Below are positions 25,399 to 36,422 of a stretch of 64,000 bases of DNA, one piece after another (position 1 is the first letter of the stretch; every line of letters starts with the position of its first letter). The position numbers and the translations under genes are program-made. The DNA is taken from NCBI RefSeq assembly GCF_015354405.1, contig NZ_JADKYP010000008.1, forward strand, positions 124,001-188,000, in the 5' to 3' direction. The notes beneath the pieces were generated by a model. The model ran no database searches. It was not told where the DNA came from and saw nothing but the letters and a program-made list of their open reading frames with translations. The stretch is from Nocardia sp. BSTN01. Its GTDB lineage: Bacteria > Actinomycetota > Actinomycetes > Mycobacteriales > Mycobacteriaceae.

Positions 25399-25415
25399 CT
25401 TGAACAGCGTTCAAG
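25399..25415. promoter_or_regulatory. BioQ-type operator upstream of bioA
   Basis: CTTGAAC-AGC-GTTCAAG contains the BioQ pattern TGAAC-N3-GTTCA at 25401-25413. A possible -10 (TAACTT, 25396-25401) abuts its left arm, so a bound repressor would block the promoter. Confidence 0.8.
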
Positions 25416-28964: not shown

Positions 28965-28977
28965 TGAACGGCGTTCA
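28965..28977. promoter_or_regulatory. BioQ-type operator upstream of bioF
   Basis: TGAAC-GGC-GTTCA, identical in pattern to the sites at bioA and bioB. A possible -10 (TATGCT, 28980-28985) follows directly and ends eight bases before the GTG start, so the operator would lie inside the promoter spacer. Confidence 0.8.
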
Positions 28978-32569: not shown

Positions 32570-33592
32570 TCAGCGGACGGCGTCGTCGAATGCCGGGCGA
32601 ATATCCGAGGGCGGCAGCATGTTCCACCGCTCGAGTTGTGCCCGCACCTGTTCGGCGGCGTCGATGTTGAGCGGGCTGGACGTCCACAGCACATAGGGAA
32701 GATTGAGGAACCGTTGCTCGGTCACCGCGCGCAGCCGGTTGATACCGGGCTTGGCGCGCAGCGCGTCCACCTTCTGGGCGAAGCTCTGCCCCGGATAGTC
32801 GACGAAGACCAGGGCGTCCGGATCGGCGGCGGCCAGGCGTTCCCACGACACCGCCGTCCACGTGTCGGCCACATCGTCGAGGGCGTTGCGGGCACCGGCG
32901 GCCTCGAGGACGGCCTGAGGGCCGCCGAATCTGCCGCTGGAGAAGATGGTCTCGCTCGCGGTGTCGAAGACGAACAGGGTGGGCGGTGTCGCGGCCCGCG
33001 GTGCGGCGCGCAAGCGCTGGAGGCGGGTATCGATGTCGGCGACGAGTGCGGTGGCCCGGTCGGGGTGTCCGGTGATCGCGCCCAGATTCGACAGATCCGC
33101 GCGCAGCGCCGCCCACGGCTCGACGGTGCCGCGTTGCCGCTGACCGGCGTGCGGGCGGCAGCTCTCGGTGAGGATGTAGGGCGCGATACCGTGGGCGCGC
33201 AGCGTATCCGGCGTGAGATCGGTGGCCTCGCTGTAGCCGTAGTTCCAGCCGGCCACCATCACATCGGGGCGCCGGGCCAGCACCGTCTCCCGCGACGGCG
33301 AACTCGGCGCCACATTGTCCAGACGATCGACGACGTCACCGTAGTGCCGTCGCAGGGTCGCGACATCCTGTTGCAGACCGGCCACCGCGGCCACCGAATC
33401 CTCGGCGCCCAAGGCCAGCGTCATCGCGACCATATTGGTGTCGTTGACGAACATGCGCTGCGCCGGAGCCGGAAAGCGCACCTGCTCACCGCAATTGGTG
33501 AGGGTCAGATTGCCGTCGGAGGTCTGCGCGGGGCCACACGCCACCAAGGACACGACGGTCGACCCGACGGCGAGCCATCGCAGAAGTTGCAT
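32570..33592 (-). CDS. btuF: ABC transporter substrate-binding lipoprotein, probable B12-binding BtuF
   Basis: A 340-residue class-III (two-lobe, helix-linked) binding protein. The signal peptide ends in the lipobox V-S-L-V-A-C, with the lipidated Cys near residue 19. F-P-A-P-A-Q-R-M-F-V-N-D-T-N and A-L-G-A-E-D-S-V-A-A-V-A are typical of the BtuF/FhuD/FepB superfamily, and R-R-P-D-V-M-V-A-G-W matches the lobe-1 domain. On protein sequence alone such proteins are often called iron-siderophore binders. The cobalamin riboswitch at the head of this operon instead points to corrinoids. Last gene of btuC-btuD-btuF. ATG 33592 has GGAGG eight bases upstream. Confidence 0.82.
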   Translation of the reverse strand: MQLLRWLAVGSTVVSLVACGPAQTSDGNLTLTNCGEQVRFPAPAQRMFVNDTNMVAMTLALGAEDSVAAVAGLQQDVATLRRHYGDVVDRLDNVAPSSPSRETVLARRPDVMVAGWNYGYSEATDLTPDTLRAHGIAPYILTESCRPHAGQRQRGTVEPWAALRADLSNLGAITGHPDRATALVADIDTRLQRLRAAPRAATPPTLFVFDTASETIFSSGRFGGPQAVLEAAGARNALDDVADTWTAVSWERLAAADPDALVFVDYPGQSFAQKVDALRAKPGINRLRAVTEQRFLNLPYVLWTSSPLNIDAAEQVRAQLERWNMLPPSDIRPAFDDAVR

Positions 33593-33723
33593 ATCGTCTA
33601 CCTCCAACGGTTTTCGGGACTACAGCTGCCGGGTTCGCGGCGGCGGCAAGGTTCGTGAACGGCGGACGGCCGGCCTATGCGCCGCCGTTTCCGGACAGCG
33701 GTAAGCCGGGTGGTGCCGGTACC

Positions 33724-34563
33724 TCATCCCGCAGCCTCGGACATCGGTTCCAGCAGGAGATGTGTCGCGCCCGTCTCCGGATGCCGCACGCGCGCCGCCC
33801 GTACACCGAAGACCGTGGCGAGAACCTCCGAACTCAACGCCTCACGTGGCGGGCGCAGCTCCGATGCGGAGCCGTCGTGCACGACCAGCACCCGGTCGCA
33901 GTAGCGGTCGGCCAGGGTCAGATCGTGCAGTGCGACCACGACGGTGCGTCCCAGTCCCCGCACCAGAGCCAGGAGGGCGAGCCGGTGGGTAATGTCCAGA
34001 TGATTGGTCGGCTCGTCGAGCAACAGCAGCGGGCTCGCCTGGGCCAGGGCCCGTGCCAGCAGCACCCGCTGCCGCTCACCGCCGGACATCCGCCGCACCG
34101 GGCGATCGGCGAACCCGCCGAGATCGACCGCGGCCAGGGCGTCCTCGACCGCGCGGCGTTCGGCCGGACTGCCCGCGCCCCACGGCGGCAGATACGGCGT
34201 GCGCCCCAGCGCGACCACCTCACCGGCGCACAGATCCGCCGGCGGCTGGTCGTCCTGCCCGACCATGGCGACCAGGCGAGCGCGCCGTCGCGCCGAGAGG
34301 GCATGCAGCGCACTGCCGTTCACCAGGACGCGGCCTCGGCGCGGGCGCAGCAGTCCGCCCAGGGTGCGTAGCAGCGTGGACTTTCCGGCGCCGTTGGGTC
34401 CGACGACGCCGACCACTTCACCGGGACGAACCTCGAATTCGGCGTCGGCCAGTACCACTCTGCCGCGCGGCCCGCACGTCAGGTCCTCCACCCGCAGTGC
34501 CGCGGCGGCCGTTTCCGATTCGGGCTCCGCGGCGGCCACAGACGGGTGGACAGACCCGTTCAT
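33724..34563 (-). CDS. btuD: ABC transporter ATP-binding protein, probable BtuD
   Basis: A 279-residue ATPase of the FecCD/BtuCD importer class. The Walker A motif V-G-P-N-G-A-G-K-S-T (about residues 56-65), the Q-loop V-G-Q-D-D, the signature R-M-S-G-G-E-R-Q-R-V, Walker B L-L-L-L-D-E-P-T-N-H-L-D and the H-loop H-D-L are all intact. It energises uptake through the preceding permease. Its start codon overlaps the permease stop (ATGA at 34560-34563), showing tight coupling, while 131 bases separate it from the binding-protein gene. Assignment to B12 rests on the upstream riboswitch. Cytoplasmic face of the membrane. Confidence 0.88.
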   Translation of the reverse strand: MNGSVHPSVAAAEPESETAAAALRVEDLTCGPRGRVVLADAEFEVRPGEVVGVVGPNGAGKSTLLRTLGGLLRPRRGRVLVNGSALHALSARRRARLVAMVGQDDQPPADLCAGEVVALGRTPYLPPWGAGSPAERRAVEDALAAVDLGGFADRPVRRMSGGERQRVLLARALAQASPLLLLDEPTNHLDITHRLALLALVRGLGRTVVVALHDLTLADRYCDRVLVVHDGSASELRPPREALSSEVLATVFGVRAARVRHPETGATHLLLEPMSEAAG

Positions 34564-35591
34564 GCCGCACCGAACCGGTAACGTCGACGCCCCATCAGCA
34601 GCAGGAAGACCGGTGCGCCGATCAGGCCGGTCAGCACACCGACCGGAATTTCGGTGGGCCGCACGAGGACTCGTGCCGCCGCGTCGGCTACGACCAGGAA
34701 CAGCGCACCGCACAGCGCCGCGACCGGAAGGAGTCGCCGATGTGTGGAGCCGACCAGTATGCGCGCCGCATGCGGGACCACCAGGCCGACGAAACCGATT
34801 CCGCCGGACACCGCCACCAGGACGCCGACCAGAATCGCCAGCCCGGTGAACAGCCCGTAGCGCACGGCCCGCACCGGCACGCCCACCGATGCGGCGGTCT
34901 CGGCGCCCACACTCAACGCGTCGAGCCAGCCGTGCACGGCGAACAGTGCCGCGCCCGCGACCCCAACCGCCGTCGCGGGCACGGCGATTCGGGTCCAATC
35001 CGCGCCGGCCAGGCTGCCGAGCAGCCAGAACAGCACCGACTGCGCGGCCTTCGGATCGGCGCTGCGGAAGATGAGATAGCTGCTCAGTGCCGAAAACGCC
35101 GATCCCAGCACTGTTCCGGTCAACACGAGACGCAGCGGCGTCAAACCGCCCTGCGCCATCGCGATCGCGAAAACCGTTGCCGCCGCGACCAAAGCGCCGA
35201 GGAGCGCGCCGCCCGACAGCGCCCAGATTCCGGCCCCGGCGAACAACCCCGACGTGATCACGGCCGCGGCCCCCACACCCGCGCCCGAGGACACACCCAG
35301 CAGATAGGGATCGGCCAGGGGATTGCGCACCAAGGTCTGCATGGCGGCCCCGGCGAGCGCCAGTCCCGCGCCGACCACCGCGGCCAGTATCGTGCGCGGC
35401 ACCCGTAACTGCCACACGATGGTGTCGAAGGCGGAATCGACCGCATCGGAGCCGCCCAGATGTCCGCCCAGCACCTCGAGCACCGCCGGGATCGGCAGCG
35501 GTTCGGCGCCGCACGCGGTCGCCACGACCATCGCGACGAGCAGCGACGTCAGCGTCACGGGGACGACGATCGTTGTCCGGATGCGGTTCAT
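34560..35591 (-). CDS. btuC: ABC transporter permease (FecCD family), probable BtuC
   Basis: A 343-residue membrane protein with about ten helices, of the FecCD permease family. Family signatures are R-V-P-R-T-I-L-A-A-V-V-G-A-G-L-A-L-A-G, R-N-P-L-A-D-P-Y-L-L-G-V-S-S-G-A, and near the end G-G-I-G-F-V-G-L-V-V-P-H plus E-I-P-V-G-V-L-T-G-L-I-G-A-P. It is the first gene of the operon and directly follows the cobalamin riboswitch, so it is the translocation pore for B12 or another corrinoid. ATG 35591 lies nine bases after GGAG; that GGAG is itself complementary to part of the riboswitch. Confidence 0.9.
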   Translation of the reverse strand: MNRIRTTIVVPVTLTSLLVAMVVATACGAEPLPIPAVLEVLGGHLGGSDAVDSAFDTIVWQLRVPRTILAAVVGAGLALAGAAMQTLVRNPLADPYLLGVSSGAGVGAAAVITSGLFAGAGIWALSGGALLGALVAAATVFAIAMAQGGLTPLRLVLTGTVLGSAFSALSSYLIFRSADPKAAQSVLFWLLGSLAGADWTRIAVPATAVGVAGAALFAVHGWLDALSVGAETAASVGVPVRAVRYGLFTGLAILVGVLVAVSGGIGFVGLVVPHAARILVGSTHRRLLPVAALCGALFLVVADAAARVLVRPTEIPVGVLTGLIGAPVFLLLMGRRRYRFGAA

Positions 35592-35609
35592 CGCCGGAAC
35601 TCCACAGGC

Positions 35610-35772
35610 ATCACGCGACCTCTTCAGAGCAGTGCCCGGCGACCGAGGTCTGACTCCCGCGGCGGTCCGCACGCCGGCGGCCGCCCGCGGTCACAGTGGC
35701 GCGACCGTTCCGGAGTTCCACCGGATTCCCGCGCCGCCGGGGATGACGGTTCCGAATACTACCGTCCGAAAT
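35610..35772 (-). promoter_or_regulatory. Cobalamin (AdoCbl) riboswitch upstream of btuC
   Basis: Read on the minus strand, the leader contains the conserved core of the cobalamin aptamer. GGGAA..CCGGTG is followed by GAACTCCGG, then the invariant GCCACTGTGA (positions 35691-35700), a variable hairpin and GGGAGTCAGACC as the 3' B12-box-like segment. Short CCCGGCG/CGCCGGG segments could close the element. B12 binding to such leaders lowers expression of transporters and biosynthesis genes. Exact ends are approximate. Confidence 0.87.
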
Positions 35773-36381: not shown

Positions 36382-36410
36382 TTGACTCACTGACCCCGCT
36401 ACCCTAGCCT
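36382..36410 (+). promoter_or_regulatory. bioB promoter (-35/-10)
   Basis: TTGACT (36382-36387), 17 bases, TAGCCT (36405-36410). The last base of the -10 is the first base of the BioQ operator. Confidence 0.6.
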
Positions 36411-36422
36411 GAACACCGTTCA
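36410..36422. promoter_or_regulatory. BioQ-type operator between bioQ and bioB
   Basis: TGAAC-ACC-GTTCA overlaps the end of the bioB -10 box and the expected transcription start, so the repressor would block bioB and, on the other strand, its own gene. Confidence 0.82.

Follow-up and report, generated by a model that had tools for sequence, protein, structure and literature searches.

The closest described counterpart of the leader analysed here is the ppe2 riboswitch of Mycobacterium tuberculosis, which acts through a uORF (uPPE2) relay that has been shown with start, Shine-Dalgarno (SD), and stop mutants (Kipkorir et al. 2024, PMC11260477). In that article, loop L13 is flanked by an anti-TIR and a TIR, uPPE2 is called partially conserved, and PPE invasion is offered, as speculation, as the origin of the relay (PMC11260477). 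A 2025 review (PMC12713380) has given the ppe2 case the name uORF-dependent translational relay, and the available part of its text leaves Nocardia unmentioned. The discovery of B12 importers via riboswitches is likewise a known method (PMC2667541).

Here, we describe a leader of this type that precedes a btuC-like permease gene in the window, by which we mean the whole 64,000-nt stretch of Nocardia DNA that was analysed. Set against the available account of ppe2, the two leaders share the following features: (i) a compact class-II-type aptamer with GGAA in J3/4 and with UCU in J6/3 unseen; (ii) a short, out-of-frame leader ORF that has its own SD and an AUGA overlap with the regulated gene; and (iii) the position of L13 within the initiation hairpin of the leader ORF. 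They differ in that the Nocardia target is a probable corrinoid importer rather than ppe2-cobQ(U), in that the Nocardia SD lies on the 5' arm of P13, with L13 as the SD-to-start spacer and codon 2 as the anti-SD, and in that no PPE gene stands between the switch and btuC in the window. Moreover, unlike the partially conserved uPPE2, the Nocardia leader ORF is kept in 68/68 orthologues, so that a relay previously reported for one M. tuberculosis gene now appears before a transporter throughout this orthologous set. We found no account of the Nocardia relay in print in the open-licence literature. The original prediction for this locus, namely that a riboswitch identifies the importer, is right and by itself ordinary; the conserved relay would be the new part.

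RESULTS AND DISCUSSION

Conserved aptamer fold in the btuC leader

The original prediction had placed a cobalamin aptamer on the minus strand of the permease leader on the strength of three motifs (GGGAATCCGGTG, GCCACTGTGA, and GGGAGTCAGACC), all of which are present there. At gathering thresholds, Rfam gave zero matches in the whole 64,000-nt window. An E-value search over 601 bases matched RF00174 at 35771-35621 (minus strand; E 2.9e-5) along the complete model (positions 1-189), at 28.1 bits versus a gathering cut-off of 31.5 bits, and the same match has an E-value of 8.7e-5 over the whole 7.8 Mb genome. The covariance model therefore does match, as the prediction anticipated, but below the cut-off, and the gathering score is a curator's threshold rather than a structural feature. 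We accept the fold despite this score because 63 distinct orthologous leaders support it; together with the RF00174 match by E-value, these leaders confirm the aptamer before the permease. Judged from its sequence, the window leader is a compact class-II-type cobalamin riboswitch, and its ligand is probably cobalamin in the form of adenosylcobalamin. With its expression platform, the riboswitch spans 35600..35747 on the minus strand (as delimited by RF00174, covariation, and our own model R1). On the same strand, the B12 box AGTCAGACC lies at 35647..35655, within the RF00174 match, and loop L5 (UCGCG) lies at 35700..35704, where its CGCG is complementary to the CGCG of L13 and is proposed to form one half of a kissing loop. 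A -10-like TAGTAT (35756..35761, minus strand) is a possible leader promoter; TAnnnT occurs 50-75 bases 5' of L5 in 67/68 orthologous leaders.

For the comparative analysis, btuC orthologues were defined as permeases with E <= 1e-130, which are present in 68 of the 151 genomes of the genus, and the relay counts given below cover these 68. After five leaders identical to others had been dropped, 63 distinct rows remained in alignment A1. The tested structure consisted of P1/P3, P4, P5, P6, a P6 extension, P13, and the kissing loop, with a four-way junction formed by P3-P6. Its named pairs form in 95.2% of cells, compared with 36-48% for slid versions and a mean of 90.3% for shuffled ones, although these pairing counts are favoured, as the structure was drawn from A1 itself. 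Pairs changing on both sides number 13/33 (at most 7 in slid versions), and the covariation score is 0.207 (at most 0.078 in slid versions), with the covariation coming mostly from the P6 extension and the outer helix. P13 pairs form in 93.2% of the A1 cells, and the CGCG of L5 and that of L13 are complementary in 98.8% of them; P13 hardly varies, and the L5-L13 columns are almost invariant, so that this contact is without covariation support. We therefore propose L5-L13 and P13 on the basis of complementarity and precedent. Model R1, which was built from the 63 leaders including the window copy, scores the window copy at 119 bits.

Nearly all of the 63 distinct leaders retain the core and the B12 box. 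Regarding the class IIb features, GGAA in J3/4 is found in the window and in nearly all A1 rows (L118, L122, and L123 deviate), and no UCU of J6/3 was seen in the B12-box segment, the junction limits being hand-set. L118 (G087) is odd in carrying three rare changes in the otherwise invariant core (GGCAA, CCGUA, and GCGCAAC), a possible sign of a switch in decay or of an error in the sequence.

When the window leader was folded unconstrained and ligand-free, P13 was absent; L5 and L13 paired over seven bases, one position out of register, the SD of the leader ORF paired with the B12 box, and the btuC SD paired with the P4 loop. This predicted fold may correspond to an unbound state of the window's clade. 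The pairing between the btuC SD and the P4 loop can reach 8 bases in the window itself and 7 bases in seven of its near relatives (8/68 loci), compared with 6 bases or fewer in the other 60/68 loci, and it was set aside as a feature of the window's clade. RNAalifold, for its part, alternatively pairs the P3 strand with L5, in what is possibly an unbound state as well.

A leader ORF coupled to btuC

On the minus strand of the window, GAAGAGG, TCGCGTG, and the leader ORF follow one another 3' of the B12 box. GAAGAGG (35619..35625) is the SD of the leader ORF, and its AGG falls within the 5' arm of P13. The hairpin P13 (AGGU/GCCU), as placed in A1, encloses loop L13 (CGCGUGAU) and spans 35606..35621; in it, the SD AGG would pair with the CCU that is codon 2, and L13 makes up the 7-base SD-to-start spacer. 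The leader ORF (35588..35611) comprises 7 codons, ATG CCT GTG GAG TTC CGG CGA TGA (MPVEFRR). It contains GGAG (35600..35603), the SD of btuC, and its stop overlaps the btuC start in an ATGA at 35588..35591.

An NTG stands at the leader-ORF start in 68/68 Nocardia orthologues (TTG in 45, ATG in 16, GTG in 7, and CTG in 0); the search pattern required TGCC with the first letter free, and all 68 loci matched it. This first letter has undergone 5 inferred changes on the permease tree, with C at no tip, and the base immediately 5' of the start takes all four letters across the 68 loci. Coding is not the sole reason for the conservation of TGCC, because pairing also constrains L13 and codon 2. Similarly, conservation of the peptide is limited to MPVE-like residues, which are largely dictated by the pairing and by GGAG.

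The leader-ORF stop overlaps the btuC start in 64/68 loci (NTGA, 62 loci; TGATG, 2 loci). Overall, the leader ORF is coupled to btuC in 67/68 loci and fused to it in frame in the remaining one. More specifically, L122 has an insertion, and its 7-codon ORF overlaps an in-frame ATG 26 codons upstream, at which btuC opens; L058 and L134 carry chains of two ORFs (66 and 26 codons, and 26 and 43 codons, respectively, in that order), in which each link is an ATGA. In the fused locus, L144 (G138), the leader ORF and btuC form one continuous frame, with CAT at the usual start position; a possible start there is a GTG 14 codons in, and two GTGs lie upstream inside the leader. First-ORF lengths are 6, 7, 13, 16, 25, 26, 33, 66, and 80 codons plus the fused form, with nine inferred length changes. 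Six of the length classes (6, 13, 16, 25, 33, and 80 codons) end directly on the btuC start, for which the chance expectation would be ~(1/3)^6 = 0.0014 if indels took no account of frame, if the classes are independent, and if stop codons are left uncounted. That the relay is kept through insertions, two-step chains, and one fusion suggests selection for the coupling itself.

The insertions between the leader ORF and btuC in L122, L123, L058, and L134 look alike by eye and resemble a repeat family; they bring their own ATG/TGA, and coupling is kept.

Occurrence of the relay among related riboswitches

The relay was scored with a detector requiring an NTG that has both an SD and CGCG a short way upstream of it, and a stop overlapping the start of a frame of at least 100 codons. 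It was positive in 65/68 btuC leaders, the misses being the two chains and the fusion. The comparison set consisted of 60 out-of-genus elements, hand-picked and mostly drawn from the best matches listed, of which 57 were parsed (all except L213, L221, and L223), and at least 2 of these 57 look mis-parsed (L208 and L234). Among the parsed elements the detector was positive in 1/57 (L210), a case that is probably spurious. Without the SD and L13 demand, ORF overlap alone was found in 17/57. The btuC counterpart L177 (G175), which belongs to another genus, has the TTG in L13 and lacks the frame coupling, which speaks against a wider spread of the relay.

Ordinary class-II/AdoCbl switches (RF00174, RF01482, and RF01689) have the core, the B12 box, and the CGCG of L13 in common with the Nocardia leader. 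Inspection by eye of the cbtB, cobN, and Ni/Co leaders of the same genome revealed no leader ORF, and in these the SD of the gene itself follows P13. Two Ni/Co transporter leaders of genus g19, L206 and L210, have an ATG within the L13 loop, which in L206 is in frame, and the transporter gene of L206 may start inside the kissing loop.

Proposed mechanism

Taking these findings together, we consider it likely that a translational OFF riboswitch drives a corrinoid importer through a leader-ORF relay; the switch appears to act on the short leader ORF coupled to btuC and not simply on btuC. Cobalamin would bind the compact four-way-junction aptamer, upon which L5 would pair with L13; codon 2 (CCU) would then pair with the leader SD to form P13, blocking ribosome start on the leader ORF. 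Without cobalamin, P13 would open and the 7-codon ORF would be translated, a ribosome ending at its TGA would restart on the overlapping btuC ATG, and btuD would be made next via a second ATGA (34563-34560). This gives a design that can be tested, the kissing loop serving at the same time as the SD-to-start spacer. For relay-type leaders in general, it advises caution, as the first start codon 3' of a riboswitch may not be that of the gene.

A simpler arrangement would be an ordinary class-II switch, in which cobalamin hides the GGAG of btuC and the leader ORF arises incidentally from the hairpin sequence, its translation not being needed. Direct initiation on btuC is possible, given that most loci have its own GGAG right after P13 and well spaced; the gene SD takes the same place, by eye, in other class-II members of the family, and in the window's clade the P4 loop is a possible pairing partner of the btuC SD. 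Against this, the frame persists across all six length classes, both chains, and the fusion, and the leader SD is on median the stronger of the two: duplex energies with the 16S tail (68 loci) have medians of -7.9 kcal/mol for the leader SD, -5.9 kcal/mol for the btuC SD, and -4.3 kcal/mol for 680 control 14-mers taken inside btuC. As 10% of the controls reach -7.9 kcal/mol and 40% match the weakest leader SD (-5.2 kcal/mol), SD strength is soft evidence. The btuC SD is furthermore weak in L055 and absent at its usual place in L144. On balance, we regard an ordinary switch as unlikely.

The main effect could instead fall on transcription, by Rho-dependent or intrinsic termination, and the leader ORF could then protect the RNA from Rho. 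Premature termination has been reported in M. tuberculosis for the leaders of metE and, less markedly, of ppe2 (PMC11260477). Retention of the overlap with btuC speaks for translation, and the two effects can coexist; mainly transcriptional control seems to us rather improbable.

Returning to the translational relay, a broader reading combines several proposals, namely that the direct target is a meaningless 7-codon peptide, that L13 serves as the SD-to-start spacer, that the importer is reached via termination-reinitiation, and that this mode had an origin separate from that of ppe2 and is a general actinobacterial way of wiring a riboswitch rather than an accident of PPE invasion. We put this combination forward tentatively, as a proposal that falls just short of being evenly balanced.

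The transporter and its probable substrate

The genes behind the leader lie on the minus strand and encode a btuC-like FecCD permease (34560..35591; PF01032, E 3.2e-89), a btuD-like ATPase (33724..34563; PF00005, E 8.4e-34), which overlaps the permease gene in the ATGA mentioned above, and a btuF-like binding protein (32570..33592, alternative TTG start at 33607; PF01497, E 3.6e-21 for the TTG form). The binding protein has a lipobox, LVAC, by eye and is probably a lipoprotein. As in E. coli BtuCDF, the Pfam families FecCD, ABC_tran, and Peripla_BP_2 are thus present in one gene cluster, and BtuC chains are among the best solved relatives. Unlike in E. coli BtuCDF, the binding protein is lipoprotein-like and the NCBIfam cut-offs were missed by all three proteins (BtuC, 219 versus 334 bits; BtuD, 125 versus 281 bits; BtuF, 32 versus 234 bits).

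A substrate other than a corrinoid, i.e., F420-0, heme, or a siderophore, would have some profile evidence in its favour. For each of the three proteins, the top NCBIfam name belongs to the putative F420-0 ABC transporter set. The closest solved chains of the permease include FhuB and hemin permeases besides BtuC, and those of the binding protein include 4mlz, an Fe3+-hydroxamate or unnamed binding protein, heme binders, and, as a weak match, BtuF. The F420-0 families, however, were likewise missed at their curated cut-offs (TIGR03868, 144 versus 392 bits; TIGR03869, 296 versus 437 bits; TIGR03873, 261 versus 372 bits), and two true TIGR03869 loci are without a cobalamin riboswitch, a control that is thin because only 2/296 genomes of the phylum matched at 1e-120 or better. 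The F420-0 reading was set aside on these two grounds. As to iron, the original prediction had noted no iron box upstream, and this holds more widely, in that no site with <= 3 mismatches to an IdeR-like consensus occurs anywhere in the window.

Profiles alone do not settle the substrate, and the counterparts of the permease are more telling. In other genera, 17/26 counterparts with 53-63% identity (L074-L099, G336 counted twice) have a gathering-level riboswitch in the locus, counted as cobalamin or AdoCbl-II gathering matches within the fetched locus, and 8 of those 17 riboswitches reach 88-107 bits, indicative of a full-length build unlike that of the window. A case from a named species is Janibacter limosus, with a permease of 62% identity and a cobalamin riboswitch of 94 bits. 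Among more distant counterparts (L100-L110; 47-54% identity), 2/11 have a cobalamin riboswitch. Scanning of named loci gave a gathering-level riboswitch in 5/17; Nocardia wallacei (L237) is below the cut-off, like the window, and has the same gene order, with identities of 83% for the permease, 73% for the ATPase, 70% for the binding protein, 89% for the TetR protein, and 95% for BioB. Because counterparts in other genera often carry cobalamin riboswitches, corrinoid import is indicated and is the best reading, and we consider a different substrate very unlikely. The names btuC-btuD-btuF given in the original prediction are, accordingly with the NCBIfam scores, not secured by the BtuC, BtuD, and BtuF cut-offs; we infer them from the riboswitch context and the counterparts, by which they are well supported.

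In six genomes of the genus without a btuC orthologue (G003, G031, G089, G097, G104, and G109), a permease of 48-51% identity is found ~130-160 bases 3' of a full-length RF00174 element of 95-104 bits. Nocardia may accordingly hold two alternative B12 import loci within one genus.

Other riboswitch-like elements and genome context

The genome contains six RF00174-type matches with E <= 0.001, of which only L001 is above the cut-off. The genes behind them were named by reading the translations: L001 precedes metE, L002/L007 precedes a cbtB-cbtA pair, L003/L008 precedes cobN, L005/L009 precedes a Ni/Co transporter of the NicO/HoxN type, and L004 is the element of the window; no clear gene was seen behind L006/L010. 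Together, the six elements look like a corrinoid and cobalt regulon. That the aptamer is a variant sensing another corrinoid or an unrelated ligand, as its sub-threshold RF00174 score and compact build might suggest, is highly improbable in view of the core and B12 box kept in nearly all the distinct leaders and of the cobalt and cobalamin genes that make up its regulon neighbours. L010 (G000:C141:117238-117165, minus strand) is a degenerate class-II element whose first convincing gene lies ~1 kb downstream, and it is possibly a relic.

The window also contains three perfect TGAACNNNGTTCA palindromes (25401-25413, 28965-28977, and 36410-36422), compared with 0.02 expected, and three were reached in 0/100 shuffles. 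They are located just before a bioA-like ORF, before a bioF-like ORF, and between the TetR gene (36378-35779, minus strand) and bioB, respectively, the names bioA-like and bioF-like being read from the sequence. BioQ is a TetR-type biotin regulator, and we take its box to be TGAACNNNGTTCA. The TetR protein is probably BioQ, and the three palindromes are probably its operators.
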